Origin: Comamonas granuli NBRC 101663
GTDB taxonomy: Bacteria > Pseudomonadota > Gammaproteobacteria > Burkholderiales > Burkholderiaceae_C
DNA length: 64,000 bases
Reading direction: 5' to 3'
Assembly: GCF_000739995.1 (NCBI RefSeq)
Contig: NZ_BBJX01000011.1
Location: forward strand, 1 to 64,000
Position numbers and translations under genes: made by a program. Positions within the stretch are counted from its first letter, which is position 1; every line of letters begins with the position of its first letter. Shown in pieces: positions 7,276-59,767 of the stretch. The notes beneath the pieces were generated by a model. That model was not told where the DNA came from. It ran no database searches and saw only the letters and a list, made by a program, of their open reading frames with translations.

Positions 7276-8067
7276 ATGAAGACCCGTTTCATCCTCATCC
7301 AGACCAGCCATGCCGGCAATGTGGGCGCCGCTGCCCGCGCCATGAAGACCATGGGTTTCGACGACCTGGTGCTGGTCGCTCCGCGCTGGCCCAACGTGCT
7401 GCGGCGCGAGGAGACCATCCAGCGCGCCAGCGGCGCACTCGATGTGCTGCAGAACGCGCGCATCGTGGACACGCTGGACGAGGCGCTCGACGGCATCAGC
7501 CACCTGTGCGCCACGGCCATGACGCCGCGCGACTTCGGCCCGCCCACGCGCGCGCCGCGCGCGCATTTCGATATGCTATTGAAAAAGGAGCTGCCGGCGC
7601 ATGCTGGACAAGCGCTGGAGGCCAAAATCACCTCCAATTCAGAACCGGCGGCTGCCGAAAGCGGCATCGGCTTCCTGTTCGGCTCCGAGCGTTTCGGCAT
7701 GGCCAACGAAGATGTGTACCGCTGCCATGTGGCGCTCTCCATTCCCACCAACCCGCAGTTCGGCTCGCTCAACCTGGGCGCGGCCATCCAGGTCATCGCC
7801 TACGAGTGGCGCCAGGCCCTGGGCGGCTTTGGCGTGGAGCAGGCCACGCCCGAGCGCGCGTTGGCCGATGCGGGCCAGGTGGCCGGCATGCTGGCGCACT
7901 GGGAGCAGGCGCTCACGGCCATCGGCTTCCTCGACCCGGCCGCGCCCAAGAAGCTCATGCCGCGGCTGAACCAGCTTTTCAACCGCGCGCAACTGGGGGC
8001 CGAGGAAATCCACATCCTGCGCGGTGTCGCCAAGGCCATGATCGAGGCGGCCCAGCCAAAGCGCTAG
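7276..8067 (+). CDS. trmJ: tRNA (cytidine/uridine-2'-O-)-methyltransferase TrmJ
   Basis: A 263-residue SPOUT methyltransferase that 2'-O-methylates position 32 of certain tRNAs. Family hallmarks: N-terminal [22 protein letters not shown], then [15 protein letters not shown] and [23 protein letters not shown], forming the knotted SAM site. The ATG at 7276 is chosen because it starts the conserved strand; the frame is open further upstream. Residues about 100-118 ([19 protein letters not shown]) are encoded by a copy of the dispersed 55-bp palindromic repeat. They fall between conserved blocks in a loop that is shorter in E. coli TrmJ. The gene is 34 bases upstream of cysE. Confidence 0.92.
7575..7628 (+). 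repeat. Dispersed 55-bp palindromic repeat, copy 1, inside trmJ
   Basis: Family pattern: GCTAT, a short AT-rich stretch, AGCTG, AGCGCTT-like arm, AAGCGCT arm, then GGAGGCCAAAAT. This copy ends CAAGCGCTGGAGGCCAAAAT and is read in frame by trmJ. Confidence 0.85.
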
Positions 8068-8101
8068 ACTGCGTGTCCTTTCTCCCCAGACCGACCCCCC
8101 C

Positions 8102-8878
8102 ATGTTTGCCCGCCTGCGCTCCGACATCCAGTGCATCCTCGACCGCGACCCCGCGGCCCGCAGCACCTGGGAGGTCATCACCTGCTACCCCGGCCTGCAC
8201 GCCATCTGGCTGCACCGGCCCGCGCACTGGTGCTGGACGCACGGCCTCAAGTGGCTGGGGCGCTTCATCTCGCATCTGGCGCGCTGGCTCACGGGCATCG
8301 AGATCCACCCCGGCGCCAAGATCGGCGAGCGCGTGTTCTTCGACCACGCCATGGGCGTGGTGGTGGGCGAGACCGCCGAGATCGGCGATGGCTGCACCAT
8401 CTACCAGGGCGTCACGCTGGGCGGCACCTCGCTCTACAAGGGCACCAAGCGCCACCCCACGCTGGGCAAGGATGTGGTGGTCAGCGCCGGCGCCAAGGTG
8501 CTGGGCGGCTTCGAGGTGGGCGACGGGGCCAAGATCGGCAGCAACGCCGTGGTCATCAAGCCCGTGCCGGCGGGCGCCACGGCGGTGGGCATTCCCGCGC
8601 GCATCATCCCGTCCAAGGAAGGCCAGAGCGCCGACGTGACCGAGGCCCAGCCGCGCAAGTTCACGGCCTACGGCATCACCCAGGAGGACGACCCGCTGTC
8701 GCAGGCCATGCGCGGCCTGATCGACAGCGCCGCCTCGCAGGAGCACCAGATCGCGCTGCTGTGGCAGGCCATCGAAAAGCTCTCCGACTGCGTCAAGACG
8801 GGCGACTGCGTGCCCGATGACGCGGCGCTGAAGGAGCAGTTCGAGGCGGGCAAGCTCAACGACCTCGTGGGGAAGTAG
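8102..8878 (+). CDS. cysE: Serine O-acetyltransferase CysE
   Basis: A 258-residue left-handed beta-helix acetyltransferase that makes O-acetylserine from serine and acetyl-CoA, the committed step of cysteine synthesis. Hexapeptide repeats run through [40 protein letters not shown] and [16 protein letters not shown]. The catalytic His-Asp region is FDHAMG. The C-terminal 70 residues after the helix are longer than in short CysE forms and lack an obvious known domain. ATG at 8102 directly follows trmJ, so co-transcription is likely. Confidence 0.94.
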
Positions 8879-8963
8879 GTCAGGCGTTGGCTGAGGGGGG
8901 CGGCCGGGGCGAGAGCCGCGGTCAGCCACCGGAACCAATGTGCCGCCTGCCGCGGCACATGCC

Positions 8964-12796: not shown

Positions 12797-13459
12797 TTGG
12801 ACGGCCACCCGGCACTGCGCGCCTGCTTTCGCGCGCCGATCCCGGAGATCGCGCAGGCCGCCGCGCTGCTGGATGCGGCCGTCACCGCTCACCTGCGGGG
12901 CCAGGCCGCCCAGGCCGAAGCCTGGATCCGGCAGGCCGACATGCCGGCGGTGGCTGCGTGGGTGGAGTCCATTCTGGGCAGGAACAGCCCCTATGCTGTC
13001 ATCCGTCCCGCCCCTGCGCCCCGCCTGGCCGGGGCGCCACGGGTGCCGGCACGCATGCCCAGCGCGCAGGAACGCTGCCAACTGCATGCGCGCGATGGCT
13101 TTCACTGCCGGTTCTGCGGCATTCCCGTCATCCGCCAGGAGGTGCGCGAGCGCATCCGGCGGGCCTACCCCCAGGCGCTGCGCTGGGGCAAGCGCAACGC
13201 AGAGCGGCACGCCGCGTTTTTTGCCCTCTGGGCGCAATATGACCACCTGCTGCCGCACGCCCTGGGCGGCGGCAACGAGCTCTCGAACATGGTCATTACC
13301 TGCGCCGCGTGCAATTATGGGCGCGGCGGGTACACCTTGGCAGAGGCCGGCCTCGCCCATCCCCTGGAGCAGCCTCCGGTGCGGTCCGCGTGGGACGGTC
13401 TGGAGCGCTTTGGGCGCGCGCCCCCCGCCGTGGGGACCGATGCAGTCTTGCCTCAGTAG
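12797..13459 (+). CDS. HNH endonuclease-type protein
   Basis: A 220-residue protein with a zinc-bound HNH fold. C104-x2-C107 (HCRFCG) and C169-x2-C172 (CAACN) form the zinc knuckle, and YDHLLPHALGGGNELSNM provides the H-(x)-N-(x)-H/N catalytic strand. The first 80 residues are helical and Ala-rich and I cannot assign them. It begins with TTG immediately after the pmbA stop, so it is probably co-transcribed and coupled; a later start is possible. Its 3' end overlaps the convergent hpaI gene by 7 bases. HNH proteins range from restriction enzymes to repair nucleases, and nothing here narrows the choice. Confidence 0.75.
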   Translation: MDGHPALRACFRAPIPEIAQAAALLDAAVTAHLRGQAAQAEAWIRQADMPAVAAWVESILGRNSPYAVIRPAPAPRLAGAPRVPARMPSAQERCQLHARDGFHCRFCGIPVIRQEVRERIRRAYPQALRWGKRNAERHAAFFALWAQYDHLLPHALGGGNELSNMVITCAACNYGRGGYTLAEAGLAHPLEQPPVRSAWDGLERFGRAPPAVGTDAVLPQ

Positions 13460-14256
13460 GCCGCGCCGGGGGCGCGTGCCGGCTGCGCCGCACCGCCAAA
13501 CTGCGCGCGCAGCTGGCGCGCCGCATGGGCGAACACCAGCACGTCCACCCCCACGGCGACGAAGGTGCAGCCCAGGTCCAGGTAGCGCTGGGCCAGGGCC
13601 GGGTCGGAGGTGAGGATGCCCGCCGCCTTGCCGCTGGCCGTGATGGTGGCGATGGCGCCCTCGATGGCCGCCTGCACCTCGGGGTGGCCGGGGTTGCTGC
13701 GGTGGCCCATGGAGGCCGACAGGTCCGCCGGGCCGATGAAGACGCCGTGCACGCCGTCCACGGCGCAGATCGCAGGCAGGTTGCGCATGGCGGTCACGGT
13801 CTCGGCCTGCACCAGCAGGCAGATTTCATCGTCGGCCACCTCCATGTAGTCGGCGCGCGCCGTCCATAGCGACGAGCGCGCCACGGCGCTGCCCACCCCG
13901 CGCACGCCGCGCGGCGGGTACTGCGTGGCCGCGGCGATGGCGCGCGCCTGCTCGGCCGTGTCCACCATGGGCACGAGCAGCGACTTGGCGCCGATGTCCA
14001 GCACCTGCTTGATGAGCGCCGTGTCGCCCTGCGGCACGCGCACCACGGCGTGCGAATCGGGGTAGCCCTGGATGGCCTGCAGTGCCGCGAGCGTGCTGCG
14101 CAGGTCGTTGGGCGCGTGTTCGCCGTCGATCAGCAGCCAGTCGTAGCGCGCCGTGGCGGCGACTTCGGCGAGGTAGGGCTCGGCCATGGAGAGCCACAGG
14201 CCGATCTGGGCCTGGCCGGCGGTGAGGGCGGTCTTGAAGGGGTTGTGGGCGGGCAT
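13453..14256 (-). CDS. hpaI: HpcH/HpaI family aldolase (4-hydroxy-2-oxoheptanedioate aldolase-like)
   Basis: A 267-residue class II pyruvate aldolase. The family cleaves 4-hydroxy-2-ketoacids to pyruvate plus an aldehyde. Motifs: LLIDGEHAPNDL (with the family His), VQAETVTAMRNL (metal-binding Glu), and VFIGPADLSASMGH (metal-binding Asp). The length matches E. coli HpaI (262). A good AGGAG precedes the ATG at 14256; the frame is open for 27 codons more. No other homoprotocatechuate genes are nearby, so the physiological substrate is uncertain. It lies downstream of the tartrate/malate-type dehydrogenase with a palindromic repeat between them. Confidence 0.88.
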   Translation of the reverse strand: MPAHNPFKTALTAGQAQIGLWLSMAEPYLAEVAATARYDWLLIDGEHAPNDLRSTLAALQAIQGYPDSHAVVRVPQGDTALIKQVLDIGAKSLLVPMVDTAEQARAIAAATQYPPRGVRGVGSAVARSSLWTARADYMEVADDEICLLVQAETVTAMRNLPAICAVDGVHGVFIGPADLSASMGHRSNPGHPEVQAAIEGAIATITASGKAAGILTSDPALAQRYLDLGCTFVAVGVDVLVFAHAARQLRAQFGGAAQPARAPGAAY

Positions 14257-14330
14257 GGGGGGCTCCTGGGGGCGGGCGGTGGCGGGGCGGCGCCGGTGGG
14301 TGCCGGCGGGCCGCGTTCTTGGGCGCATCA

Positions 14331-14390
14331 TAGCCAAAAAGGCCTGCAGCGCTCGCCCAGCAAGCGCTGCCAGCTATTGTTTCAGTAGCT
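14331..14390 (-). repeat. Dispersed 55-bp palindromic repeat, copy 2, between the dehydrogenase gene and hpaI
   Basis: Read on the minus strand it shows ACAATAGCTGGCAGCGCTTG, the second arm GAGCGCTG, and the AGGCC end. It lies in the 168-base gap and touches no coding sequence, and could affect expression of hpaI downstream. Confidence 0.85.
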
Positions 14391-14424: not shown

Positions 14425-15513
14425 TCAGCCCTGCGCGATGCGCTGCGCGATGGCCTCGCCCACCTGCGTGGTGCTGGCCGTGCCGCCCAGGTCGGGCGTG
14501 CGCGGGCCGCTGCGCAGCACTTCCTCGATCGCCGCCACGATGGCGTCGTGCGCCGCGCGGCCCGCGCCCTGGCCGTGGGTGAGGAAGTCCAGCATCAGCG
14601 CGCCGGACCACACCATGGCGATGGGGTTGGCGATGTTCTGGCCGTAGATGTCGGGCGCCGAGCCGTGCACGGGCTCGAACAGGCTGGGGAAGCGCCGCTC
14701 GGGGTTGAGGTTGGCCGACGGTGCCAGGCCGATGGTGCCGGTGGTGGCCGGGCCCAGGTCGGAGAGGATGTCGCCGAACAGGTTGGTGGCGGCGACCACA
14801 TCGAAGCGCCCCGGCTGCAGCACGAAGCGCGCGGTCAGGATGTCGATGTGCTGCTTGTCCAGCGTGACCCCGGGGTAGTGCCGGCCCACGTCCTCGGCGC
14901 GCTGGTCCCACCAGGGCATGCTGATGGCGATGCCGTTGCTCTTGGTGGCCAGGGTCAGGTGCTTGCGTGGGCGGCTTTGCGCCAGGTCGAAGGCGAACTT
15001 GAGCAGGCGCTCGGCGCCGTGGCGCGAGTACACCGACTCCTGGATCACGATCTCACGCTCCGTGCCCTCGTACATGATGCCGCCCAGCGAGGTGTACTCG
15101 CCCTCGGTGTTCTCGCGCACCACGAGGTAGTCGATGTCGCCGGGCTTGCGGCCCGCGAGCGGGCAGGGCACGCCCTCGAACAGGCGCACGGGGCGCAGGT
15201 TGATGTACTGGTCGAATTCGCGCCGGAACTTGAGGAGGGACCCCCACAGCGAGACATGGTCCGGCACGGCGCTCGGCCAGCCCACGGCGCCGAAGAAGAT
15301 GGCGTCCATGCCCGAGAGTTGCGCCTTCCAGTCGTCCGGCATCATCCGGCCGTGCTGCAGGTAGTAGTCGCAGTGCGCCCAGTCGAAGGTGTGGAATTTC
15401 AGCGCCAGGCCGCAGCGCTGGGCGGCGGCCTGCACGGTGCGCAGGCCCTCGGGCATGACTTCCCGGCCGATGCCGTCACCGGGAATGACGGCAATCTGGT
15501 AGCTGCGGGCCAT
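14425..15513 (-). CDS. Tartrate dehydrogenase / D-malate dehydrogenase family protein (TtuC/DmlA-like)
   Basis: A 362-residue beta-decarboxylating dehydrogenase of the isopropylmalate/isocitrate family. Motifs: IAVIPGDGIGREVMPEG, GAVGWPSAVPDHVSLW and FDQYINLRPVRLF (family basic residues), VVRENTEGEYTSLGG, and NLFGDILSDLGPATTGTIG (Mg-binding Asps). The combination of GAVGWP and VPDHVSLWG is that of tartrate/D-malate dehydrogenases rather than LeuB. It would oxidise tartrate, D-malate or a similar 2-hydroxyacid with NAD. ATG at 15513 is 17 bases after yqeY, so it may be in the rpsU-yqeY transcript. Which substrate is used cannot be told. Confidence 0.87.
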   Translation of the reverse strand: MARSYQIAVIPGDGIGREVMPEGLRTVQAAAQRCGLALKFHTFDWAHCDYYLQHGRMMPDDWKAQLSGMDAIFFGAVGWPSAVPDHVSLWGSLLKFRREFDQYINLRPVRLFEGVPCPLAGRKPGDIDYLVVRENTEGEYTSLGGIMYEGTEREIVIQESVYSRHGAERLLKFAFDLAQSRPRKHLTLATKSNGIAISMPWWDQRAEDVGRHYPGVTLDKQHIDILTARFVLQPGRFDVVAATNLFGDILSDLGPATTGTIGLAPSANLNPERRFPSLFEPVHGSAPDIYGQNIANPIAMVWSGALMLDFLTHGQGAGRAAHDAIVAAIEEVLRSGPRTPDLGGTASTTQVGEAIAQRIAQG

Positions 15514-16448: not shown

Positions 16449-17728
16449 GTCGCTGCGGGCGCGGCCAGCGCCAGGGCGCAGGCATGGGCGCTGGCCCAGG
16501 CCCACTGGAAGTTGTAGCCCCCCAGCCAGCCCGTGATGTCCACCACCTCGCCGATGAAGTACAGCCCCGGCTGGGCCTTGGCCTCCATGGTCTGCTGCGA
16601 CAGGGCGCGCGTGTCCACGCCGCCCAGGGTCACTTCGGCCTTCTTGTAGCCCTCGGTGCCGGTGGGCGTGAGCTCCCAGCGCGTCATCTGCGCGGCCAGG
16701 CGGGCCAGGGCCTTGTCGGAGGCCTCGTTGATGGGGCGCTGCCATTCGGGGTCGCGCGCCGCCCAGGCGTCGGCCAGGCGGCTGGGCACGAAGGCGGCCA
16801 GGGCGTTGGCGATGTGCTTGCGCGATTGCAGCTTGGCCTGCGCGAGCGCGGCGGGCAGCTCCGCGCCGGGCGCCAGGTCGATGGCCAGCGGCGTGCCCTC
16901 CTGCCAGTAGCTGGAGATCTGCAGCACCGCCGGGCCCGACAGGCCCCGGTGGGTGAACAGCAGGTCTTCGTCGAAGGCCATGTGCGTCTTCTTGCTGCCG
17001 GTGGCGATGCGCACGGGCAGGGCCAGCCCGGCCAGCTGCGCCCAGGGCGCCCAGTCCTGGCCGTCGAAGGTGAGCGGCACCAGGCCGGGGCGGCGCTCCA
17101 CCAGGGGGATGCCGAATTGCTGGGCGATGCGGTAACCCAGGTCGGTGGCGCCGATCTTGGGGATGGACAGGCCGCCCGTGGCCACCACCAGGCTGCGCGT
17201 CCGCACGCGGCCCCGGTCAGTATCAATTTGATAGCTACCCGCGCTTGTATCTTCTGCGCTGGAGGCCAAAAAGGCAATCTTTTTCACGCTGCAGGGTTGC
17301 CAGTGCGTCACCCCCCCTGCGGCGCATTCGGCCAGCAGCATGGCGATGAGGTCCTCGGCCGAGCGGTCGCAGAACAATTGCCCCTTGTGCTTTTCGTGGA
17401 AGGCGATGCCGTGCTTTTGCACCAGGGCGATGAAGTCCTGCGGCCCAAAGCGCGCCAGCGCCGAGCGGCAGAACTGCGGGTTCTGGCCCACGAAGTGCTT
17501 GTGCGGCGCCTGCGGGTCCAGGTCGCGGTTGGTGAAGTTGCAGCGCCCGCCGCCCGAGATGCGGATCTTCTCGGCCACCTGCGCGGCGTGGTCGATGAGC
17601 AGCACCTTGCAGCCGCGCTGGCCCGCCTGGGCGGCGCAGAACAGGCCGGCGGCGCCCGCGCCGATGACGACGGCATCGAACTGCGGCACGGCGCTGCCCG
17701 CCGCGCTCGCGCTGGCGTGCGCCGTCAT
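16445..17728 (-). CDS. NAD(P)/FAD-dependent oxidoreductase, HI0933/BaiN-like flavoprotein
   Basis: A 427-residue flavoprotein. The N-terminal dinucleotide fold reads DAVVIGAGAAGLFCAAQAG. The family signature ISGGGRCNFTN follows, then LVVATGGLSIPKIGATDLGY, THRGLSGPAVLQISSYW, EVTLGGVDT and the C-terminal YFIGEVVDITGWLGGYNFQW. The HI0933 family includes YhiN and BaiN; the reaction in most bacteria is unknown. Residues about 152-170 (IAFLASSAEDTSAGSYQID) are encoded by a reversed copy of the dispersed palindromic repeat. ATG at 17728 overlaps the stop of the ABC ATPase gene by 4 bases, so the two are coupled. Confidence 0.9.
   Translation of the reverse strand: MTAHASASAAGSAVPQFDAVVIGAGAAGLFCAAQAGQRGCKVLLIDHAAQVAEKIRISGGGRCNFTNRDLDPQAPHKHFVGQNPQFCRSALARFGPQDFIALVQKHGIAFHEKHKGQLFCDRSAEDLIAMLLAECAAGGVTHWQPCSVKKIAFLASSAEDTSAGSYQIDTDRGRVRTRSLVVATGGLSIPKIGATDLGYRIAQQFGIPLVERRPGLVPLTFDGQDWAPWAQLAGLALPVRIATGSKKTHMAFDEDLLFTHRGLSGPAVLQISSYWQEGTPLAIDLAPGAELPAALAQAKLQSRKHIANALAAFVPSRLADAWAARDPEWQRPINEASDKALARLAAQMTRWELTPTGTEGYKKAEVTLGGVDTRALSQQTMEAKAQPGLYFIGEVVDITGWLGGYNFQWAWASAHACALALAAPAAT
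17221..17272 (+). repeat. Dispersed 55-bp palindromic repeat, copy 3, inside the BaiN-like gene
   Basis: Reads TATCAATTTGATAGCT, a degenerate GCGCTT arm, and the diagnostic end GCGCTGGAGGCCAAAAA. The gene runs on the opposite strand and translates the reverse complement without a stop or frameshift. Confidence 0.8.
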
Positions 17729-26155: not shown

Positions 26156-26159
26156 GGTG

Positions 26160-26290: not shown

Positions 26291-26326
26291 TCCATGGTGG
26301 GCGTAGCGTGTGCAGGGGTTTTTGCT

Positions 26327-26378
26327 GCTAATTTGATAGCTGCTGGCGCTTTATTGGTGCGCGCTGGAGGCCAAAATG
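26327..26378 (+). repeat. Dispersed 55-bp palindromic repeat, copy 4, providing the start of the DUF815 gene
   Basis: Reads GCTAATTTGATAGCTGCTGG and ends GCGCTGGAGGCCAAAATG. The last three bases are the DUF815 start codon and GGAGG (26366-26370) is its Shine-Dalgarno sequence. Confidence 0.88.
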
Positions 26379-27248
26379 AACGAAAAATTTGAACATCTGA
26401 TCGAACGCGCCGAGCAGCTCATCGCGCGCATCGAATCCGTGCTGCCGCAGCCGCTGGCGGCGCCCGACTGGTCTTCTGCCATTGCCTGGCGCTACCGCAA
26501 GCGCAGCAGCGGGCACGGCACGCTGGAGCCCGTGCGCCATGTGGCGGCGATGCGTCTGGAAGACCTGAAGGAAATCGACGGCCAGAAAGAGAAGATCCAG
26601 CGCAACACCGAGCAGTTCGTCCGCGGCCTGCCGGCCAACAACGTGCTGCTCACGGGGGCGCGCGGCACGGGCAAGTCCTCGCTCATCAAGGCCTGCCTGA
26701 ACTCTTACGCGCCGCAGGGCCTGCGCCTGATCGAGGTGGACAAGGCCGATCTGACCGACCTGCCCGACATCGTCGAGGTGGTGGCCGGCCGGCCGGAATA
26801 CTTCATCGTGTTCTGCGACGACCTGAGCTTCGAGGACGGCGAGCCGGGCTACAAGGCGCTCAAGTCCATCCTCGACGGCTCGGTGGCCGCCGCCACGCCC
26901 AACGTGCTGATCTACGCCACCAGCAACCGGCGCCACCTGCTGCCCGAGTACATGCGCGAGAACCTCACGTACACCCACACCGACGATGGCGAGGTGCACC
27001 CGGGCGAGGGCGTGGAGGAGAAGATCTCGCTGTCCGAGCGCTTCGGCCTGTGGGTGAGCTTCTACCCGTTCAGCCAGGACGAATACCTGGCCATCGCCGG
27101 GCAGTGGCTGGCCTCGTTCGGGCTGGGCGGCGATGCCATCGCCGCAGCGCGCCCCGAGGCCCTGGTCTGGGCGCTGGAACGCGGTTCGCGCAGCGGCCGC
27201 GTGGCCTATCAGTTTGCGCGCGACTATGCAGGACGCCACGGTGGTTGA
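26376..27248 (+). CDS. DUF815 AAA-type ATPase
   Basis: A 290-residue ATPase of the DUF815 family. Walker A is [14 protein letters not shown] (about residues 91-104), Walker B-like [18 protein letters not shown], and sensor-like [16 protein letters not shown]. The C-terminal lid region is [13 protein letters not shown]. Its cellular role is unknown. The start is well fixed: an in-frame TAG at 26337-26339 closes the frame upstream and the only ATG before residue 59 is at 26376. Both that ATG and its GGAGG belong to the dispersed repeat. The 3' end overlaps mutT by 23 bases. Confidence 0.88.
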
Positions 27249-27681
27249 GCCGGCGCGCAAGCACACCGAGGTCGCGGTCGGCATCCTGATCCGCGCCGAT
27301 GGCGCGCTGCTCTTGAGCACAAGGCCGCCGGACAAGGTGTATGCGGGCTACTGGGAGTTCCCTGGCGGCAAGATCGAGGCGGGCGAGACCGTGGAGCAGG
27401 CGCTGCGCCGCGAGCTGCAGGAGGAGCTGGGCATCACCATCGGCCCGGCGGCGGTCTGGAAGGTGACCGAGCACGACTACCCCCACGCCCTGGTGCGCCT
27501 GCACTGGTGCAAGGTGCATGACTGGACCGGGGACTTCGAGATGCGCGAGGGCCAGGCCATGGCCTGGCAGCACTGGCCCATCGAGGTGCGTCCGGTGCTG
27601 CCAGGCGCGTTGCCGGTGCTGGCTTGGCTGGCCGAGGAGCGCGGCGTGCCGTTCGATCCGGCAATACTATCGAATGGATAG
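27226..27681 (+). CDS. mutT: 8-oxo-dGTP diphosphatase, MutT-type Nudix hydrolase
   Basis: A 151-residue Nudix enzyme. The Nudix box is complete in [20 protein letters not shown] followed by [24 protein letters not shown] and GYWEFPGG match MutT, which removes oxidised dGTP from the nucleotide pool. The ATG at 27226 lies inside the DUF815 gene, in another frame, so translation is probably coupled. The last residues (ILSNG) and the TAG stop come from a copy of the dispersed palindromic repeat. Confidence 0.9.
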
Positions 27682-27717
27682 CTGCCGGCGCTTGCTCAGT
27701 AAGCGCCAGAGCCCCAT
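27666..27717 (+). repeat. Dispersed 55-bp palindromic repeat, copy 5, at the mutT stop
   Basis: Reads ACTATCGAATGGATAGCTGC then CGGCGCTTGCTCAGTAAGCG. Its TAG at 27679-27681 terminates mutT. It fills the gap to the convergent yacG gene. Confidence 0.85.
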
Positions 27718-27718
27718 T

Positions 27719-27937
27719 TCACTCCAAACTGGTCCGTGGATCGCCGAACGGGGCGTCCTCGGGCGGGGCCTCCGCAGGGACGCGAAAATCCTCGCGCGCC
27801 CAGGCGCCCAGGTCCATCTGCTGGCAGCGCTGGCTGCAGAACGGGCGCCAGGGGTTGTCCGGGTGGTAGAGGCTGGGGCCTTGGCAGGCGGGGCAGCGCA
27901 CGGTGCGCGGGGCGGGCTGTGGTGCGGGGCGGTGCAT
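27719..27937 (-). CDS. yacG: DNA gyrase inhibitor YacG
   Basis: A 72-residue zinc protein. The four Cys are in VRCPACQG and FCSQRCQQMDLGAWA, the YacG pattern C-x2-C...C-x3-C. The E. coli protein binds GyrB and inhibits gyrase. The acidic tail after FRVP is normal. It closes the minus-strand pilB-to-zapD series, 26 bases after zapD, as in many gamma- and betaproteobacteria. Confidence 0.9.
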   Translation of the reverse strand: MHRPAPQPAPRTVRCPACQGPSLYHPDNPWRPFCSQRCQQMDLGAWAREDFRVPAEAPPEDAPFGDPRTSLE

Positions 27938-35272: not shown

Positions 35273-36355
<1,083 letters not shown>

Positions 36356-36360
36356 AATAC

Positions 36361-36413
36361 GCTACTATTTTGATAGCTTATAGCGCTTGCCCAGCAAGCG
36401 TTGCAACACAAAA
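36361..36413 (+). repeat. Dispersed 55-bp palindromic repeat, copy 6, obgE-proB gap
   Basis: Reads GCTACTATTTTGATAGCTTA then TAGCGCTTGCCCAGCAAGCG. It fills nearly the whole 68-base gap and ends 10 bases before the proB ATG, where no Shine-Dalgarno sequence is evident. Confidence 0.85.
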
Positions 36414-36423
36414 AGACGCAAAA

Positions 36424-37563
36424 ATGGCTTCGAACGTGCTGCGCGATGCCCGCCGCATCGTGGTGAAAGTGGGCTCCAGCCTGGTAACCAACGAAGGCCG
36501 CGGCCTGGACGAAACGGCCATTGCCCAGTGGTGCCGCCAACTGGCTGCGCTGGTGCGCGGCGACGGCCAGGTGCGCCGCGAGGTCATCATGGTCTCCAGC
36601 GGCGCCATCGCCGAGGGCATGAAGCGCCTGGGCTGGACGAGCCGCCCCAAGGAAGTGCATGAGCTGCAGGCCGCTGCCGCCGTGGGCCAGATGGGCTTGG
36701 CGCAGATGTACGAGACCAAGCTGCGCGAGCAGGGGTTGGGCAGCGCCCAGGTGCTGCTCACCCATGCCGACCTGGCTGACCGCGAGCGCTACCTCAACGC
36801 GCGTTCCACCCTGCTCACGCTGCTGCAGCTCGGCGTGCTGCCGGTGATCAACGAGAACGACACCGTGGTCAACGACGAGATCAAGTTCGGCGACAACGAC
36901 ACCCTGGGGGCGCTGGTCGCCAACCTGGTGGAGGCCGACGTGCTGGTCATTCTCACGGACCAGAAGGGCCTGTACACCGCCGATCCGCGTAAGGACCCCG
37001 AGGCGCGGTTCGTGCATGAGGCGCGGGCGGGCGATCCGGCACTGGAGGCCATGGCCGGCGGCGCGGGCTCAAGCATCGGCAAGGGCGGCATGATCACCAA
37101 GATCCTGGCGGCCAAGCGCGCCGCAGGCTCGGGCGCCTCGACCGTCATTGCCTGGGGGCGCGAGAGTGACGTGCTCGTGCGCCTGGTGCAGGGCGAGGCC
37201 ATCGGCACGCTGCTGGTGGCGCAGACGGCCAAGACGCAGGCGCGCAAGCAATGGATGGCCGACCATCTGCAGTTGCGTGGCGCTGTGGTCGTGGATGCCG
37301 GCGCCGCCGCCAAGCTGCGGGGCGAGGGCAAAAGCCTGCTGCCCATCGGCATGACCGCGGTGGAAGGCGAATTCTCGCGCGGGGACGTGATTGCCGTGCG
37401 TGACGCGCAGGGCCGGGAAATTGCACGCGGCCTGGCCAACTACGCCAGCGCCGAGGCGCGCCTGCTGTGCCGCAAGCCCTCGGGTGAATTCGAGCGCCTG
37501 CTGGGCTACGCGGCGGAGCCCGAGATGGTGCACCGCGACAACCTGGTGCTCACCGGCGCCTGA
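36424..37563 (+). CDS. proB: Glutamate 5-kinase
   Basis: A 379-residue amino-acid kinase with a C-terminal PUA domain, first step of proline synthesis. [53 protein letters not shown] and [14 protein letters not shown] are conserved. PUA begins near [23 protein letters not shown] 36424 is chosen ([11 protein letters not shown]); an upstream in-frame ATG at 36370 would lie inside the repeat and add non-conserved residues. Confidence 0.96.
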
Positions 37564-43681: not shown

Positions 43682-44548
43682 TTATTTCATCCCTGGCCAT
43701 TGGCCGCCCGAGCAACGCACGATGCCGGCGAGGTCTTTGCGTGTTTGCACGGCGGCAAAGCCGGCCTCCTGCAGCAGGGCGCAGACGGCCGGGGCCTGGT
43801 CCCAGCCGTGCTCGAGCAGCAGCCAGCCGCCCGGCGCCAGGCAGGCCGGGGCCTGGGCGATGATGGCGCGCAGGTCCGCCAGGCCGTCGGCGCCGCTGGC
43901 CAGGGCCGCGCGCGGCTCGTGGCGCAGCGCGGCCAGGTGCGGGTCGGCCTGGGGGATGTAGGGCGGGTTGGCGACGATGGCGTCGAACGGCCCCTGCAGC
44001 CCCTGCAGCCAATCGCCCTGCAGGCATTGCACCGGCAGGCGCAGGCGCGCGGCATTGCCCTGGGCGACGGCGAGCGCGCCGGCGCTGGCATCCACGGCCA
44101 GCACCCGAGCGTCGGGGCGCTGGCTTTGCAGGGCCAGGGCGATGGCGCCGCTGCCCGTGCCCAGGTCGACGATGCGCGGCGCGGTGCGCGCCTGCAGCGC
44201 CTGCAGGGCCCAGTCCACCAGGGTCTCGGTGTCGGGGCGCGGGTCGAGCACGCGCGCGTCCACCTGCAGCTCCAGGCCGTAAAAGGCCTTGCGCCCCGTG
44301 AGGTAGGCCACGGGCTCGCCCGCCTGGCGCCGCGCGCACAGGGCGGCGTACTGCGCCTGCACGGGCGCCGGCAGGGTGTCGGTGTCGTGCGTGAGCAGCC
44401 AGGCGCGGTCGTGCAGGGGGCGGCCCAGGGCGTGCAGCAGCAGCATCTGCGCATCGATGCGCTCCAGGCCCTGGGCGCGCGCCTGCTCCAGTGCCTGCTG
44501 GACGCTCCAGGGTGCTATGTTTTCAGGAGCTTCTGGCGCTTGTTCCAT
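43682..44548 (-). CDS. prmC: Peptide chain release factor N5-glutamine methyltransferase PrmC
   Basis: A 288-residue SAM methyltransferase that modifies the GGQ glutamine of release factors. SAM motif VDLGTGSGAIALAL, catalytic NPPYIP, and LLEHGWDQ match. It lies just after prfA, its substrate gene. Residues 2-12 (EQAPEAPENIA) are the translation of part of a dispersed palindromic repeat, so the N-terminus has been extended by, or starts within, the repeat. The conserved helix begins near residue 14. Confidence 0.94.
   Translation of the reverse strand: MEQAPEAPENIAPWSVQQALEQARAQGLERIDAQMLLLHALGRPLHDRAWLLTHDTDTLPAPVQAQYAALCARRQAGEPVAYLTGRKAFYGLELQVDARVLDPRPDTETLVDWALQALQARTAPRIVDLGTGSGAIALALQSQRPDARVLAVDASAGALAVAQGNAARLRLPVQCLQGDWLQGLQGPFDAIVANPPYIPQADPHLAALRHEPRAALASGADGLADLRAIIAQAPACLAPGGWLLLEHGWDQAPAVCALLQEAGFAAVQTRKDLAGIVRCSGGQWPGMK
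44514..44545 (+). repeat. Dispersed palindromic repeat, partial copy 7, at the prmC start
   Basis: GCTATGTTTTCAGGAGCTTC then TGGCGCTTGTTC: the left half of the family pattern. The prmC gene runs opposite and its ATG lies one base outside the repeat. Confidence 0.75.
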
Positions 44549-44568
44549 GGGCGCTGCCTGCGGTTTTC

Positions 44569-45657
44569 TTAGATGCCCGTGCCGCGTTCGAGCTCGGCGA
44601 GCTGCTCGGCCTCGCGGGCGTGGCGCAGGGCCTGCAGCACCTCGTCCAGATCGCCCTCCATGATGGCCAGCAGCTTGTAGAGCGTGAGGTTGATGCGGTG
44701 GTCGGTCAGCCGCCCCTGCGGGAAGTTGTAGGTGCGGATGCGGTCGCTGCGGTCGCCGCTGCCGATCAGGCCCTTGCGCTCGGCGGCCTCCTTGGCGGCG
44801 CGCTCGCTGCGCTCCTTGTCCTGGATGCGCGCCTGCAGCACCTGCAGGGCCTTGGCCTTGTTGGCGTGCTGGCTGCGCCCGTCCTGGCATTCGGCGACGA
44901 TGCCCGTGGGCAGGTGCACCACGCGCACGGCCGAGTCCGTCTTGTTGATGTGCTGGCCGCCGGCGCCGCTGGCGCGGAAGGTGTCGATGCGCAGGTCGGC
45001 CGGGTTGAGGGTGATGGCCTCGGCTTCGTCCGGCTCGGGCATCACGGCCACGGTGCAGGCGCTGGTGTGGATGCGGCCCTGCGCCTCGGTGGCGGGCACG
45101 CGCTGCACGCGGTGGCCGCCCGATTCAAAGCGCAGCGTGCCGTAGGCGCCCTCGCCCACGATGCGCAGCACGATTTCCTTGTAGCCGCCGAGCTCGGCAG
45201 GGCTCTCGCTCACCACCTCCGTGCGCCAGCCGGTGTTGGCCGCCCAGCGCGTGTACATGCGCGCCAGGTCGCCGGCGAACAGGGCCGACTCGTCGCCGCC
45301 CGTGCCGGCGCGGATTTCGAGGAAGGCGTTGCGCGCGTCGTCCGGGTCCTTGGGCAGCAGCAGGCGCTGCAGTTCGTCTTCGAGCTGGGCCAGCTCGGCC
45401 TCGCAGCCCTGGATTTCCTCCTGCGCCATCTCGGCCATGTCGGGGTCGGCGAGCATGTCGCGCGCGCCGGCCAGGTCGGCCTCGCGCTGCAGGTAGCGGG
45501 CGTAGCGCCCGGCGATCTGCGTGACCTCGGCGTGCTCGCGCGAGATGGCGCGGTACTGCGCCATGTCGGCCATGATGTCCTCGCGCGAGAGCAGGAAGTC
45601 GAGCTCCTCCAGGCGCCGGGCATAGCGCTCCAGTTGGGTGCGGAGAAAGGGTTTCAT
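44569..45657 (-). CDS. prfA: Peptide chain release factor 1
   Basis: A 362-residue RF1. The peptidyl hydrolysis motif [20 protein letters not shown] and the RF1-specific PAT-like region ([20 protein letters not shown]) are clear. It reads UAA and UAG. It lies between hemA and prmC; a repeat occupies the gap to hemA. Confidence 0.97.
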
Positions 45658-45679: not shown

Positions 45680-45729
45680 GCTACGCTTTGGGTAGCTGGA
45701 GGCGCTTGCCAGTCAAGCGCCAGAGGCCG
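45680..45729 (+). repeat. Dispersed 55-bp palindromic repeat, copy 8, hemA-prfA gap
   Basis: GCTACGCTTTGGGTAGCTGG then AGGCGCTTGCCAGTCAAGCG. The arms pair perfectly (GGCGCTTG/CAAGCGCC). It lies 22 bases upstream of the prfA start. Confidence 0.85.
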
Positions 45730-45762
45730 ATGGGGCTTGCAATGCTGCGGCAGCGAGCGCCG

Positions 45763-47069: not shown

Positions 47070-47129
47070 AAATTTCTGCCGCACTAGGCCAGGCGCATGC
47101 GCACAGGTCTTGATTTACGTCATTTTTCC

Positions 47130-47408
47130 ATGGCCCCGCTGACCCTGCTCAACCACCTGCTCAACTTTGCCGCCCCCGCGGCGGCGCTGGCCCTGGCGCT
47201 TGCGCTGGGGGGGCGGTTCTTGATGCCAAAATCGGCTTCGCGCCTTTCCTGGTGGGCGCGAGCAGCTATTGTTTTCGTAGTAGGCTGCGCCGTGCTCGCC
47301 GCCGGCCTGTGGTACTACGGCCGCGACGGCAAGATGGCCACCTACGCGGCCCTGGTACTGGCCATGGCCACGGCCCAGTGGCTGCTGGGGCGTGGCTGGA
47401 GAGGTTGA
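47130..47408 (+). CDS. Small membrane protein of unknown function
   Basis: A 92-residue protein (103 if it starts at 47097) with three hydrophobic segments: FAAPAAALALALALGGRFLM, AAIVFVVGCAVLAAGLWYY and YAALVLAMATAQWLLG. No catalytic motif is seen. Residues about 32-51 (MPKSASRLSWWARAAIVFVV) are encoded by a copy of the dispersed palindromic repeat, which supplies a cytoplasmic loop and the start of the second membrane segment. It is divergent from hemA. Confidence 0.6.
   Translation: MAPLTLLNHLLNFAAPAAALALALALGGRFLMPKSASRLSWWARAAIVFVVGCAVLAAGLWYYGRDGKMATYAALVLAMATAQWLLGRGWRG
47225..47280 (-). repeat. Dispersed 55-bp palindromic repeat, copy 9, inside the small membrane protein gene
   Basis: Read on the minus strand: CTACGAAAACAATAGCTGCT, degenerate arms GCGCCCACC/GGCGCG, then the GATTTTGGC end. 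The host gene translates it through without interruption. Confidence 0.7.
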
Positions 47409-50464: not shown

Positions 50465-50514
50465 GCTATGTTTTCAGTAGCTTCCAGCGCTTGCTGTATA
50501 AGCGCTGAAAGCGG
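50465..50514 (+). repeat. Dispersed 55-bp palindromic repeat, copy 10, ugpE-ugpC gap
   Basis: GCTATGTTTTCAGTAGCTTC then CAGCGCTTGCTGTATAAGCG. It fills the 60-base gap between ugpE and the ugpC start codon. Confidence 0.85.
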
Positions 50515-50521
50515 ATTTTGC

Positions 50522-51379
50522 TTATTTTTCCGTGTCCACCAGGCCCTTGACGAACCACTTCTGCATGAGCATCACGACCAGCGCCGGCGGCAGCATGGCG
50601 AGGATGGCGGTGGCCATGACCACGTTCCACTCCACGTAGACCTCGCCGAAGATGGCGCGCTTGATGCCCAGCACGATGGGGTACATGTCCTCGCTGGTGG
50701 TGACCATCAGCGGCCAGAGGTACTGGTTCCAGCCGTAGATGAACTGGATCACGAACAGCGCCGCCATGGTGGTCTTGGACAGGGGCAGCAGCACGTCGAG
50801 GAAAAAGCGCATGGGCCCGGCGCCGTCGATGCGCGCCGCCTCCACCAGCTCGTCGGGCACGGTGAGGAAGAACTGGCGGAACAGGAAGGTGGCCGTGGCC
50901 GAGGCGATCAGCGGCACCGTGAGGCCGGCATAGGTGTTGAGCATGCCCAGATTGGAGATCACCTCGTAGGTCGGGCCGATGCGCACCTCCACGGGCAGCA
51001 TCAGCGTGATGAAGATCATCCAGAACACGGCGTTCTTCAGCGGGAAGCGGAAGTACACGATGGCAAAGGCCGAGAGCAGCGAGATGGCGATCTTGCCCAC
51101 GGCGATGGCCAGGGCCATGGCCAGGCTCACGCCCAGCATGGGCCAGCCTGCGGCGATGGTCGAGCCCGCGTGCGTCTTGCCGCCCAGCAGGGCGAGGCGG
51201 TAGGTCTCGAGCAAGTGCGTGCCCGGCAGCAGCGACAGCGGGTGGCTGGAGGCGATCTGCTCGGCCGACTGCGTGGAGGCGATGAAGGCCAGGTAGACCG
51301 GGAAGGCGATGACCAGCACGCCCAGCAGCAGCACGGCGTGGGCGACGAAGTCGAGGACGGGGCGGCGTTCGACCATCAT
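50522..51379 (-). CDS. ugpE: sn-glycerol-3-phosphate ABC transporter permease UgpE
   Basis: A 285-residue MalG-type permease with six hydrophobic segments and the EAA loop [40 protein letters not shown] and [20 protein letters not shown] match UgpE. It is two bases after ugpA. Confidence 0.94.
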
Positions 51380-55326: not shown

Positions 55327-58300
55327 ATGAATGTTTCGAATGCACAGGCGGCCCAGGTGCAGGCTGCTGAACCTGCGCGCTTGCGCGAGATTCCGTACAA
55401 CTACACCAGCTTTTCCGACCGGGAAATCGTCATCCGCCTGCTGGGCGAGGAGGCCTGGGGCGTGCTCGACCAGTTGCGCCGCGAGCGCCGCACCGGCCGC
55501 TCGGCGCGCATGCTCTACGAGGTGCTGGGCGACATCTGGGTCGTGCAGCGCAACCCCTACCTGCAGGACGACCTGCTGCACAACCCGGCGCGCCGCAAGC
55601 TGCTGGTCGATGCGCTCGAGCACCGCATGGCGGAGATCGACAAGCGCCGCCTGCCGCAGGAAGACGCCGAGCGCGACCGCCGCGTGGGCGTGCTGGTGGA
55701 TGCCGCGCGCCGTGCCATCGCCGAGTTCGACGCCACGCTGGTCGAGGCCGGCGAGCTGCGCAAGAAGGTGGCGCGCCGCCTGGGCCGCCACACCGCCAAG
55801 GACAACATCAAGTTCGACGGCCTCTCGCGCGTGAGCCACGTGACCGACGCTACCGACTGGCGCGTGGAATACCCGTTCGTGGTGCTCACGCCCGACACCG
55901 AGGCCGAGATGGCCGCGCTGGTCAAGGCCTGCATCGAGCTGGAGCTGACCATCATCCCGCGCGGGGGCGGCACGGGCTACACGGGGGGGGCGGTTCCGCT
56001 CACCTGGCGCAGCGCCGTGATCAACACCGAAAAGCTCGAGGCCATGACCGGGGTGGAAATGCGCTGCCTGCCGGGCGTGGACCGCGAGGTGGGCACGATC
56101 TGGACCGAGGCCGGCGTGGTCACCCAGCGCGTGGCCGACGCGGCGGAGGCGGCCGGCTTCGTCTTCGCGGTGGACCCCACCAGTGCCGAGGCCTCGTGCG
56201 TCGGCGGCAACATCGCCATGAACGCAGGCGGCAAGAAGGCCGTGCTGTGGGGCACGGCGCTGGACAACCTGGCGAGCTGGCGCATGGTCACCCCAGACGG
56301 CGAGTGGCTGGAGGTCACGCGCGTGGGGCACAACCTGGGCAAGATCCACGATGCCGAGCTGGCCAGCTTCGAACTGCAGTATTTCCAGGCCGACGGCAAG
56401 ACGCCCATCCGCACCGAGCGCCTGGACATCCCCGGCAGGACCTTCCGCAAGGAGGGCCTGGGCAAGGACGTGACGGACAAGTTCCTCGCCGGCCTGCCGG
56501 GCGTGCAGAAGGAGGGCACCGACGGCCTGATCACCAGCGCGCGCTGGATCGTGCACCGCATGCCCGAGCACACGCGCACCGTGTGCCTGGAGTTCTTCGG
56601 CAATGCCAAGGACGCCGTGCCCAGCATCGTGGAGATCAAGGACTTCATGTTTGCCGAGCAAAAGCGCAGCGGCGTGCTGCTGGCCGGCCTGGAGCACCTG
56701 GACGACCGCTACCTCAAGGCCGTGGGCTACACCACCAAGTCCAAGCGCGGTGGCCTGCCCAAGATGCTGCTGGTGGGCGATATCGTGGGCGACGACCCCG
56801 ACGCCGTGGCCCGCGCCGCCGCCGAGGTGGTGCGCATCGCCAACTCGCGCTCGGGCGAGGGCTTCACGGCGGTGAGCGCCGAGGCGCGCAAGAAGTTCTG
56901 GGCGGACCGCAAGAAGACCGCAGCCATCAGCCGCCACACCAACGCCTTCAAGATCAACGAGGACGTGGTGATCCCGCTGCCGCGCATGGCGGAGTACACC
57001 GACGGCATCGAGCGCATCAACATCGAGCTGAGCCTGCGCAACAAGATCGAGCTGGCCGATGCGCTGGAGGACTTCCTGACCCGCGGCGATCTGCCGCTGG
57101 GCAAGCCCGGGGCGGGCGGCGAGCTGCCTTCGCCCGAGCTGCTGGAGGAGAAGCTGGCCCTGGCTCTGGCCCTGGTGCGCGAGACGCGCGCGCTCTGGCA
57201 GGACTGGCTGCGGCGCGTGGAGGAGCTGTTCCCGCAGCTGCAGGACCACCGCCTGCGCGCGAGCTGGAAGACGCAGATCCGCGATCCGCTGCGCAACATC
57301 TTCACCGGCAGCGACTTCGAGCCGCTGATGCAGGCCCTGGGCGAGGTGCAGCAGCGCGTGCTGCGCGGCCGCGTGTGGGTGGCGCTGCACATGCACGCGG
57401 GTGACGGCAACGTGCACACCAACATCCCCGTGCACAGCGACAACTACGCCATGCTGCAGACCGCGCACGAGGCCGTGGCGCGCATCATGGTGCTGGCGCG
57501 CAGCCTGGACGGCGTGATCTCGGGCGAGCACGGCATCGGCATCACCAAGCTCGAATTCCTGACCGACGAGGAACTGGCGCCGTTTGCCGAATACAAGCGC
57601 AAGGTGGACCCGCACGGCCGCTTCAACCGCGGCAAACTGCTGCGAAATCAGGAGCTGCTGGCGCAGAGTCAGCAAGCGTTGCAGGCCAATCCGGCCCATA
57701 AGGGCGCGCGCAGTTCGCTGATGTTCGCCGACCTGACCAACGCCTACACGCCCAGCTTCGGCCTGATGGGCCACGAGTCGCTGATCATGCAGCAGAGCGA
57801 CATCGGCGACATCGTCGCCAGCGTCAAGGACTGCCTGCGCTGCGGCAAGTGCAAGCCGGTGTGCGCCACGCACGTGCCGCGCGCCAACCTGCTGTACAGC
57901 CCGCGCAACAAGATCCTCGCCACCTCGCTGCTGGCCGAAGCCTTTCTGTACGAGGAGCAGACGCGCCGCGGCGTGTCCATCCGCCACTGGCAGGAGTTCG
58001 AGGACGTGGCCGACCACTGCACCGTGTGCCACAAGTGCTACAACCCCTGCCCGGTCAAGATCGACTTCGGCGACGTGACCATGAACATGCGCAACCTGCT
58101 GCGCAAGATGGGCAAGAAGAGCTTCCGCCCGGGCAACAAGCTGGCCATGGCCATGCTCAACGCCACCAACCCCGACACCATCAAGCTGCTGCGCGGCGCC
58201 ATGGTCAACGTGGGCTTCAAGGCCCAGCGCATGGCCGTGGACGCGCTGCGCAGCGTGGCCCGCAAGCAGACCGCGCACCCGCCGGCCACCGTGGGCACGG

Positions 58301-59247
58301 CGCCGGTCAAGGAGCAGGTGATCCACTTCGTGAACAAGAAGCTGCCCGGCGGCCTGCCCAAGAAGACGGCGCGCGCGCTGCTGGACATCGAGAACAAGGA
58401 CTACGTGCCCATCATCCGCAACCCGGCCGCCACCTCGGCCGACACGGAGGCGGTGTTCTACTTCCCCGGCTGCGGCTCCGAGCGCCTGTTCAGCCAGGTG
58501 GGCCTGGCCACGCAGGCCATGCTGTGGCACGCCGGCGTGCAGACCGTGCTGCCGCCCGGCTACCTGTGCTGCGGCTATCCGCAGCGCGGCAGCGGCCAGT
58601 TCGACAAGGCCGAGAAGATGATCACCGACAACCGGGTGCTGTTCCACCGCGTGGCCACCACGCTGAACTACCTGGACATCAAGACGGTGGTGGTCTCGTG
58701 CGGCACCTGCTACGACCAACTGCAGGGCTACCAGTTCGACAAGATCTTCCCCGGCAGCCGCATCATCGACATCCACGAATACCTGCTGGAAAAGGGCATC
58801 ACCCTGCCGGCAGGGCAGGGCGGTTACCTGTACCACGAGCCCTGCCACAACCCCATGAAGCAGGGCGACTCCATGCAGACCGTGCGCGCCCTGGTGGGCG
58901 ACCAGGTGCTCAAGAGCGAGCGCTGCTGCGGCGAATCGGGCACGCTGGGCGTGACGCGGCCCGATGTCTCCACCCAGGTGCGCTTCCGCAAGGAAGAGGA
59001 AATCCGCAAGGGCGAGGCGCAACTGCGCGCCAGCGGCGCCGTGGGCGCGCAGGACAACATCAAGATCCTCACGAGCTGCCCCAGCTGCCTGCAGGGCATC
59101 TCGCGTTACCAGGATGACCTGCAGAACGGCCTGCTCGAGGCCGACTACATCGTCATCGAGATGGCCAAGCAGATCCTGGGCGAGAACTGGCTGCCCGAGT
59201 ACGTGCAACGCGCCAACGCCGGCGGCATCGAACGGGTGCTGGTGTGA
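55327..59247 (+). CDS. FAD-linked oxidase fused to Fe-S/CCG domains (DUF3683, D-lactate/glycolate-dehydrogenase-like)
   Basis: A 1306-residue multidomain oxidoreductase. Order: a DUF3683-type N-terminus (about 1-180), FAD-binding-4 domain with [15 protein letters not shown] (about 208-222), FAD-oxidase C domain ([32 protein letters not shown]), two 4Fe-4S sites ([11 protein letters not shown] from 836, [12 protein letters not shown] from 898), then two CCG domains ([11 protein letters not shown] near 1081; [10 protein letters not shown] and CCGESGTLG near 1170-1208). It would oxidise a 2-hydroxyacid and pass electrons to the quinone pool; the substrate is unknown. It overlaps the HIT gene by 4 bases. 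Confidence 0.88.
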
Positions 59248-59729
59248 GCGCGCTCCCCGCGCCAGGTACGGGCGGACCTGCGGCGGCGGCCGCCAGCCCG
59301 GCGTGCCCGCTCTGCGCCACCGAGGGCGGTGAGCTGGTCTGGCGCGGCGCGGCGCTGCGCGTCATCCGCGCCGACGAGGCCGGTTTTCCGGCCTTCTACC
59401 GCGTGGTCTGGAACGCGCATGTGGCCGAGTTTTCCGACCTGTCCGCCGCCGAGCGCCAGCACTGCATGGAGGCCGTCGCCGCCGTCGAGCAGGTGCTGCG
59501 TGCGCAGCTGGCGCCCACCAAGATCAACCTCGCCGCGCTGGGCAACATGGTGCCGCACCTGCACTGGCACGTGATCGCGCGCTTCGACTGGGACAGCCAC
59601 TTTCCCGCACCCGTCTGGGCGCCGGCGCAGCGCGCGCGCGCCGTGGAGCAGGAGGCGGCGCTGGCCGCACGCCTGCCGCACGTGCACGCACGGCTGCGCG
59701 AGCGCTTGCAGGCGCTATCGCAACAATAG
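59244..59729 (+). CDS. HIT family protein
   Basis: A 161-residue histidine-triad nucleotide hydrolase-like protein with the HIT core [10 protein letters not shown] and an N-terminal C-x2-C (CPLCATEGG). [20 protein letters not shown] is typical of a betaproteobacterial subgroup. It starts with GTG overlapping the stop of the oxidoreductase gene. The last codons (ALSQQ) and the stop TAG come from a dispersed palindromic repeat. Confidence 0.9.
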
Positions 59730-59767
59730 CTGGCAGCGCTTGTGCAGCAAGCGCTGCAGCCGGTTTT
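59714..59767 (+). repeat. Dispersed 55-bp palindromic repeat, copy 11, at the HIT gene stop
   Basis: GCTATCGCAACAATAGCTGG then CAGCGCTTGTGCAGCAAGCG, ending near GCCGGTTTT. Its TAG (59727-59729) ends the HIT gene. Confidence 0.87.

Follow-up and report, generated by a model that had tools for sequence, protein, structure and literature searches.

A long dyad-symmetric DNA repeat of Comamonas granuli and its relatives overlies several housekeeping genes without lengthening them and may be a signal spread by biased DNA exchange

Several families of short repeats have been described that invite comparison with the one reported here. Rickettsia palindromic elements are inserts of about 150 bp, short palindromic repeats that stand in frame in unrelated genes (PMC10969869). 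The BRE repeats of Bordetella are about 90 bp long, have 64-79% GC in that genus and are tandem at some loci; they are common to Bordetella and the Comamonadaceae and are usually intergenic, with some copies in genes (PMC3110155). DNA uptake sequences (DUS in Neisseriaceae, USS in Pasteurellaceae) are considered to originate through point mutations in sequence that is already present, with a preference for non-coding DNA (PMC1939737). Here we describe a dispersed motif of about 65 bp from Comamonas granuli NBRC 101663. The stretch analysed, hereafter the window, is positions 1 to 64,000 of contig NZ_BBJX01000011.1 (G000:C24:1-64000, where G000 denotes this genome of 3.5 Mb in 34 contigs). The motif lies over coding sequence in dxr, lpxB, a SpoU-methylase gene and anmK, and no change in length accompanies it there. 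We tentatively read the repeat as a DNA signal, about 65 bp long and recognised by its sequence, that may have been spread and kept by biased DNA exchange, rather than as an insertion parasite, and we hold this reading with somewhat less than even confidence.

An original prediction made from the letters of the window had proposed a genome-wide family in a betaproteobacterium of the Comamonadaceae and had listed eleven copies of a unit of about 55 bp. All eleven lie where they had been placed and the family is indeed genome-wide, with 135 copies in a quarter of the genome; the unit itself is longer than had been proposed, since the informative stretch covers about 65 bp, from about -16 to +52 around the hexamer ATAGCT, with sharp edges. 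We trained a weight matrix on 29 strict copies from the genome (3 of the 29 inside the window), over positions -15 to +50 around ATAGCT; it recovers 11/11 of the listed copies at 26-81 bits and adds two, at 57639-57702 (31.6 bits) and 60293-60356 (22.8 bits). It gave no match at 8 bits or above in 24 Markov-simulated windows (orders 1, 2 and 5), and this clean separation made an 11-copy covariance model unnecessary. The strict pattern matches the genome 59 times read forward and 0 times when reversed; its use in training inflates the information at its fixed positions, and divergence was measured separately. In 883,001 bases of G000 (about 25% of the genome: the window, locus L035, C30:1-400000, C33:1-340000 and C29:1-60000; hereafter the G000 sample), the 135 copies score at least 20 bits and occur about once per 6.5 kb.

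Read 5' to 3', the consensus is GCTAT, an A/T-rich stretch, ATAGCT, n3, RGCGCTT, n7, AAGCGCT, GGAGGCC and nATTTnaCTnnAAAT. Its mean GC content is 48% (38-58% over 68 copies) against 69% for the window. By our own reading of the consensus, it would contain three weak dyads, GCTAT/ATAGC, AGCGCTT/AAGCGCT and ATTT/AAAT, centred near -4, +19 and +45. Across 103 intergenic or gene-end copies, paired positions hold 896 Watson-Crick cells compared with 889 expected from column composition, and complementarity is slightly in excess at the two innermost pairs of the right dyad (67 versus 59 and 62 versus 54); pairing is barely above column expectation, and therefore it is the letters, not the pairing, that are conserved. 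No half-copies were found after full copies had been masked, and no short word outside the copies, as a candidate minimal uptake word, was in excess. An Rfam 15 scan of the window at gathering scores returned only a tRNA and left the motif unmatched, also in 26000-26450, and one real copy had no match in either a plasmid or a phage collection, a result that does not decide between readings.

Part of this motif has already been printed. Table 7 of PMC5217627 (2017) includes, as a possible new motif of Acidovorax ebreus, the word pair GCTTAT(N)5AAGCG with 114 copies, 107 of them intergenic (44 between convergent, 4 between divergent and 59 between co-oriented genes). It forms the core of our motif's right dyad, has 10 matches in the G000 sample and is likewise mostly intergenic and near genes; what the available text of that paper offers are pairs of short words, unexplained and without a full element or gene overlay. 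The same table lists ATAGCT(N)22CAAAAG in Polaromonas naphthalenivorans (125 copies). Neither the G000 sample nor 217 kb from 11 Polaromonas-type loci contains a match to this second pair, so that its link to the motif is tentative. The motif is set apart from BRE by description (PMC3110155), being about 65 bp long, 48% GC and dispersed.

Like the Rickettsia palindromic elements, the motif lies in frame in unrelated genes (32 in-gene copies among the 135). Those elements lengthen genes by insertion, whereas the motif does not in dxr, lpxB, the SpoU-methylase gene and anmK, so that gene invasion of the Rickettsia kind, as originally proposed, fails where it can best be examined. In dxr, all 27 aligned sequences from the genus and family (28 less G004, whose gene is split) have equal length under the motif, 17 of them carriers (26-58 bits) and 10 non-carriers. 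The comparison was widened to 80 named loci from relatives' contigs, and among the matches listed there is no gap under the motif in 80/80 loci for dxr, in 65/65 loci spanning the site for lpxB (17 at 10 bits or more) and in 64/64 for the SpoU-methylase gene (18 at 10 bits or more). Left out were 15 lpxB and 16 SpoU-methylase loci in which the gene is absent or the alignment stops inside it; in none of them does a break fall at the site. Carriers of these last two (10-65 bits) belong to Giesbergeria, Acidovorax, Polaromonas and unclassified Comamonadaceae or Burkholderiales, together with single loci of Comamonas and Variovorax at around 10-12 bits; the motif is missing from most loci of Variovorax, Ramlibacter and Limnohabitans. 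Solved homologues are likewise ungapped under the motif for Dxr, AnmK (a 70-bit copy) and LpxB (53.7 bits). The original prediction would be contradicted if orthologues without the repeat had the same residues at these sites, and this was borne out in part: in the four genes named above the residues are homologous and the lengths equal.

At the DALETIA peptide of dxr or its counterpart, the 10 non-carriers have 8 Leu and 2 Ile (G031 and G034), and among the 17 carriers Leu goes with AGAGC in 8 and Ile with the consensus ATAGC in 9, a pattern that looks as if it had arisen in steps. The dxr peptide VLQAPDALETIASH is identical in G028, which has no motif, and G029 (26.3 bits), yet the two genomes differ there at six codons, every difference being synonymous, and at five of them the G029 codon is the one that suits the motif, whichever of the two states came first. 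More generally, 362/703 codons (51.5%) under 31 in-gene copies end in A or T compared with 7.9% elsewhere, and each of these copies (31/31, with 1 of 32 dropped) outscores all 2000 synonymous recodings of its own peptide. Such a codon bias is also expected from the preselection of copies by matrix score, and an insertion would bring such codons too; the case for overlay therefore rests on the missing gaps.

By dxr similarity, the kin of G000 are Giesbergeria and Acidovorax. The strict pattern, which would miss diverged versions of the motif, is present in 26 of 60 genomes (G000 and 59 relatives), namely in 23 of the 26 genomes of the genus including G000 (all except G002, G005 and G008), in 3 of 10 from other genera of the family and in 0 of 24 from other families. 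In G002 (Giesbergeria anulus ATCC 35958), 438 kb contain no copies and no match from 0 bits up. A tree of dxr, a single gene with low support at deeper nodes, joins G002 and G005 (support 1.0) and groups them with G010 (0.83), which has 4 strict copies plus some decayed ones; given this grouping with a motif-bearing genome, the motif-free state of G002 and G005 probably reflects loss of copies.

Positions are also retained among relatives. Copies are named here by a position inside the element and not by its start, so that 7587 denotes the element at 7575..7638. Window copies that could be anchored are occupied, at 20 bits or more, at 9/10 sites in G003, 8/10 in G014, 8/9 in G035 (another genus) and 3/3 in G022; copies 7587, 14377 and 17231 had no anchors in relatives, and a long C33 gene tried as an anchor had no full orthologue in five relatives. 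The unoccupied sites are those of 59726 in G003 (a 2.9-kb interval) and G014, of 50477 in G014 (partly deleted) and of 60305 in G035. Over C30 and the window, 22/27 comparable G000 copies are present in G022 and 20/21 in the reverse direction. The five sites unoccupied in G022 are 24082 (a 3-bp difference), 165652 and 232229 (an enlarged-loop variant), 226193 (G022 46 bp shorter, not a clean excision) and 254205 (G022 67 bp shorter). In the variant copies at C30:165652 and C30:232229 (L103 and L106), the right dyad is opened by an enlarged loop of about 40-45 bp, which contains a TTTCAG...TGAAA-like inverted repeat.

Over 21 of the 22 occupied G000/G022 orthologous pairs, divergence falls as information content rises (Spearman -0.64, 66 positions), and in the 7 intergenic pairs it drops from 54% at the positions of least information to 12% at those of most. 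The 21 pairs have mean scores of 54.1 and 54.7 bits (G000 and G022), and losses of consensus letters are near-equal on the two sides (90 and 86). Such a gradient is not predicted by neutral decay of old inserts. What these comparisons show is a long DNA sequence that is read whole and kept, in and between genes, by something that differs among lineages. It behaves in this like DNA that a trans-acting process reads and maintains, much as happens with DNA uptake sequences.

We propose a model in which cells would prefer to take up, or convert to, DNA with a better match to the motif, and in which homologous recombination would swap out the resident allele, so that the motif improves stepwise. 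The improvement would consist of point changes, or of letters added in spacers and loops, and would proceed wherever the sequence tolerates the motif, above all in short intergenic gaps. If the reader protein were lost or altered, copies would decay, and the start and stop codons found within the motif would be side effects of its filling whole intergenic gaps. In its full form, the proposal is a DNA self-recognition signal outside the Neisseriaceae and Pasteurellaceae. Acidovorax, Giesbergeria and Polaromonas relatives would carry it as a genome watermark of 65 bp with dyad symmetry, read whole, written into housekeeping genes by biased exchange across the divergence of genera and erased with loss of its reader. 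In that form we consider it doubtful. The likeness to DNA uptake sequences is that the motif, too, occurs in coding DNA without insertion, with partial length gains in other genes; it differs in being about 65 bp long, in having dyad halves that are always together and in its density of about one per 6.5 kb. A literature search for uptake sequences in the Comamonadaceae or Burkholderiales turned up no paper.

A number of observations weigh against spread by biased exchange. Known uptake sequences are far denser than the motif, and their hallmark, a short word (9-12 bp) in great excess and mostly single, is not what the motif presents. Uptake sequences are described as 9-12 bp long (PMC3630211) and as not being palindromes (PMC1939737). 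ComEC was found in 15/16 genomes (missing only in G008, which is 84% complete) and DprA in 12/12, and both are present in the motif-free G002 and G005; competence genes therefore do not track the motif. The 10 in-gene G000/G022 pairs show a weaker gradient of divergence (36% at the least and 24% at the most informative positions), and the sixth codon difference between G028 and G029 in dxr (GCA>GCT) slightly disfavours the motif in G029. Gains in length relative to G002 belong here as well, at or near four gene junctions (+39, +40, +67 and +91 bp) and in genes (+15, +18 and +36 bp), as do extra residues under the motif relative to the best solved homologue in an HI0933-like protein (8, versus 3v76), DapE (8) and GlmU (7). 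At C30:254205, where G022 and G002 are both 67 bp shorter than G000, the copy has the look of a recent gain of 67 bp. These gains in length, the single dxr codon that runs the other way and the convergent bias of the A. ebreus word pair weigh this reading down and raise its insertion and RNA rivals. As a separate observation on competence genes, ComEC matches (PF03772) at G028:C1:1836740-1837544 are split over three frames; G028 has 26 strict copies.

The insertion rival holds that the motif is a palindromic mobile element, similar to Rickettsia palindromic elements, REP sequences or miniature inverted-repeat transposable elements (MITEs), which spread anciently and was later remodelled, the in-gene copies being old in-frame inserts. 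Full-length units with sharp edges and no partial copies are what it would produce, and 79/135 copies are intergenic. Comparison of 14 copies with the motif-free G002 cuts both ways. The nine in genes differ by 0, 0, 0, 0, -3, -10, +15, +18 and +36 bp, so that 4/9 are equal in length and none has gained a full element; the other five are longer by 39, 40, 67, 91 and 190 bp, and a separate GC-rich repeat accounts for part of the 190 bp. The idea of insertion is thereby kept partly alive, by the 67 bp at C30:254205 that are missing from G022 and G002, by the gains of 39, 40 and 91 bp at three junctions, and by the 7-8 additional residues in the HI0933-like protein, DapE and GlmU. By our own reading, the copy at C30:336447 adds residues too, and window copy 7587 possibly does so in its SpoU-like protein, for which the Pfam match covers 173 residues for 140 profile positions. 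On the other side, the 209 homologues of three genes, among the matches listed, have no gap, conservation follows information content, and dxr, lpxB, the SpoU-methylase gene and anmK as they stand are incompatible with insertion.

REP/RAYT systems resemble the present case in their short intergenic palindromes, and the G000 genome encodes an IS200-like protein; they differ in that the motif overlies coding DNA without insertion and shows hardly any hairpin covariation. The RAYT-like (PF01797) gene of G000 has a copy 40 bp behind it, which would favour a mobile element, and among 20 loci a copy stands 35-43 bp downstream of the PF01797 gene in G000, G029, G004 and G006, with one within the frame in G035. 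PF01797 genes are also present in the motif-free G002 and G005, however, so that the gene does not track the motif, and a RAYT link is not supported. The gene itself, at G000:C34:55302-55625 (L035), has about 237-250 codons and occurs in most family members examined, with or without the motif. Taken together, we regard an inserted element as unlikely.

Placement relative to genes was assessed in the G000 sample with gene calls derived from codon usage, in which stops are exact and starts approximate. Between genes lie 79/135 copies versus 8 expected, wholly inside genes 32/135 versus about 117, and over gene ends 24/135 versus about 10. The excess of overlap with genes that had been anticipated is thus restricted to gene ends, copies inside genes being below chance, which speaks against gene invasion. 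Copies between co-directional genes are oriented 33 to 23, which we count on the side of the DNA-signal reading. Same-strand stops within 250 bp of a copy number 61; for 20 of them the distance to ATAGCT is 13-15 bases, which places the stop immediately ahead of GCTAT, and in 5/61 of these nearby genes the element's own TAG is the stop codon. At the site of copy 26336, most relatives read stop codon, motif, start codon, and G002, G005 and G027 carry unrelated spacers.

The 20/61 stops at this fixed distance, together with the two inverted repeats, could suggest a device acting at the RNA level, either a bidirectional terminator or a double hairpin for mRNA stability at gene ends. Convergent gene pairs flank 13/79 intergenic copies (95/749 junctions are convergent), and the related A. 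ebreus word pair lies between 44 convergent and only 4 divergent gene pairs (PMC5217627). Set against this are the pairing counts, little above column composition (896 versus 889 cells), the 19/135 copies that are antisense inside genes, the 10/79 intergenic copies between divergent genes and the position of the ATTT run in the consensus, 8 bases behind the right arm. We consider an RNA device very improbable.

The main rival to biased exchange is a chromosomal protein site: a DNA-binding protein of the host would sit on the motif and organise or maintain the chromosome, each copy being under ordinary selection. The three dyads, centred about 23-25 bp apart in our reading of the consensus, would seat an array of dimers; conservation at the level of letters with almost no pairing covariation is consistent with such a site, and a discrete full-length unit without half sites fits it better than biased exchange. 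Both strands are used on C30 (37 and 32). Spacing is somewhat more even in some measures and not in others: relative to random gene junctions, C33 copies have a spread of 0.67 versus 0.91 (P 0.015), with P 0.45 for gaps below 1 kb, and C30 has 2 such gaps versus 7.2 (P 0.016), with P 0.39 for spread, so that any departure from random junctions toward evenness is slight and inconsistent. A role tied to replication polarity was rejected: the strand split is 11:2 in the window but 37:32 on C30 and 16:24 on C33, and GC skew bears no clear relation to it. It would be demanding for hundreds of 65-bp sites each to be selected strongly enough to impose rare codons, and the absence of the motif from the G002 and G005 stretches would require loss of function; this explanation fits loss in sisters less well. 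The candidate proteins examined were RAYT, ComEC and DprA. We judge it possible, though on the unlikely side.

The thirteen window copies (11 on the + strand, 2 on the - strand) illustrate these placements. Seven of the 13 touch a called gene (3 inside, 2 at the 5' end and 2 at the 3' end), close to, though not the same as, the original count of seven out of eleven (four in frame, one start and two stops). That the motif supplies start and stop codons and sits in frame in genes is confirmed. In copy 26336 (26324..26387, +, 67.4 bits), GGAGGCCAAAATG supplies a Shine-Dalgarno-like GGAGG, within the right-end GGAGGCC, and the ATG of gene 26376-27248. A NUDIX gene (ORF 27133-27681) stops at the TAG (27679-27681) of the copy at 27666..27729 (+, 80.8 bits), and a HIT-domain gene (59244-59729) at the TAG (59727-59729) of copy 59726 (59714..59777, +, 68.5 bits). 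Copy 44526 (44514..44577, +, 38.3 bits) lies over the start region of a PrmC-like gene on the - strand. Inside reading frames are copy 7587 (7575..7638, +, 63.4 bits), in frame in the SpoU-methylase-like ORF 7129-8067 (+), where the element's TAG reads GAG; copy 17231 (17219..17282, +, 40.7 bits), antisense in the HI0933-like flavoprotein gene 16445-17728 (-); the additional copy 57651 (57639..57702, +, 31.6 bits), sense, in a 1306-codon FAD-oxidase-like gene (55327-59247); and copy 47269 (47218..47281, -, 26.4 bits), in frame in the 103-codon + strand ORF 47097-47408, which is skipped by the gene caller and has no Pfam match, yet is ungapped in G003 and G014.

The remaining copies lie between genes. 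Copy 14377 (14326..14389, -, 74.8 bits) stands between the - strand genes 14425-15513 and 13453-14331, and the copy at 36361..36424 (+, 65.3 bits) occupies the gap from 35285-36355 to the next + strand gene. The copy at 45680..45743 (+, 40.7 bits) is flanked by two - strand genes, and copy 50477 (50465..50528, +, 67.8 bits) occupies the gap from the start of 49439-50461 to the stop of 50522-51379 (both -). The additional intergenic copy 60305 (60293..60356, +, 22.8 bits) is matched at the same place by stronger copies in G003 (57.9 bits) and G014 (67.9 bits).

Two observations lie outside this family. A second dispersed repeat of about 130 bp and 76% GC, at window positions 26153-26290, begins at a stop codon and has many similar copies in G000, G003, G004, G022, G023 and others (up to 93% identity among the matches listed); it is absent at the same site in most relatives compared, has a diverged second copy at 24732-24837 and, as we take it, resembles Bordetella BRE more than the motif does. 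In the G. anulus sample (G002, L155-L174), words containing GGCGCC are nearly absent (AGGCGCCC, for example, occurs 0 times versus 189 in G000), which looks as if they were avoided due to a restriction enzyme.

Short genomic repeats are usually explained as jumping parasites, and several housekeeping genes described here differ: protein length is kept while codons, against a strong bias toward G/C endings, spell a long DNA signature common to many intergenic sites. Such spelling requires a force that acts on DNA letters over many loci and in several genera. If biased exchange is the true explanation, the motif would be a mate-recognition signal in a group for which a literature search had found none; if a protein site is, it would be an unusually long and frequent binding site. 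Motif-rich and motif-free sister species permit a direct search for the reader protein.

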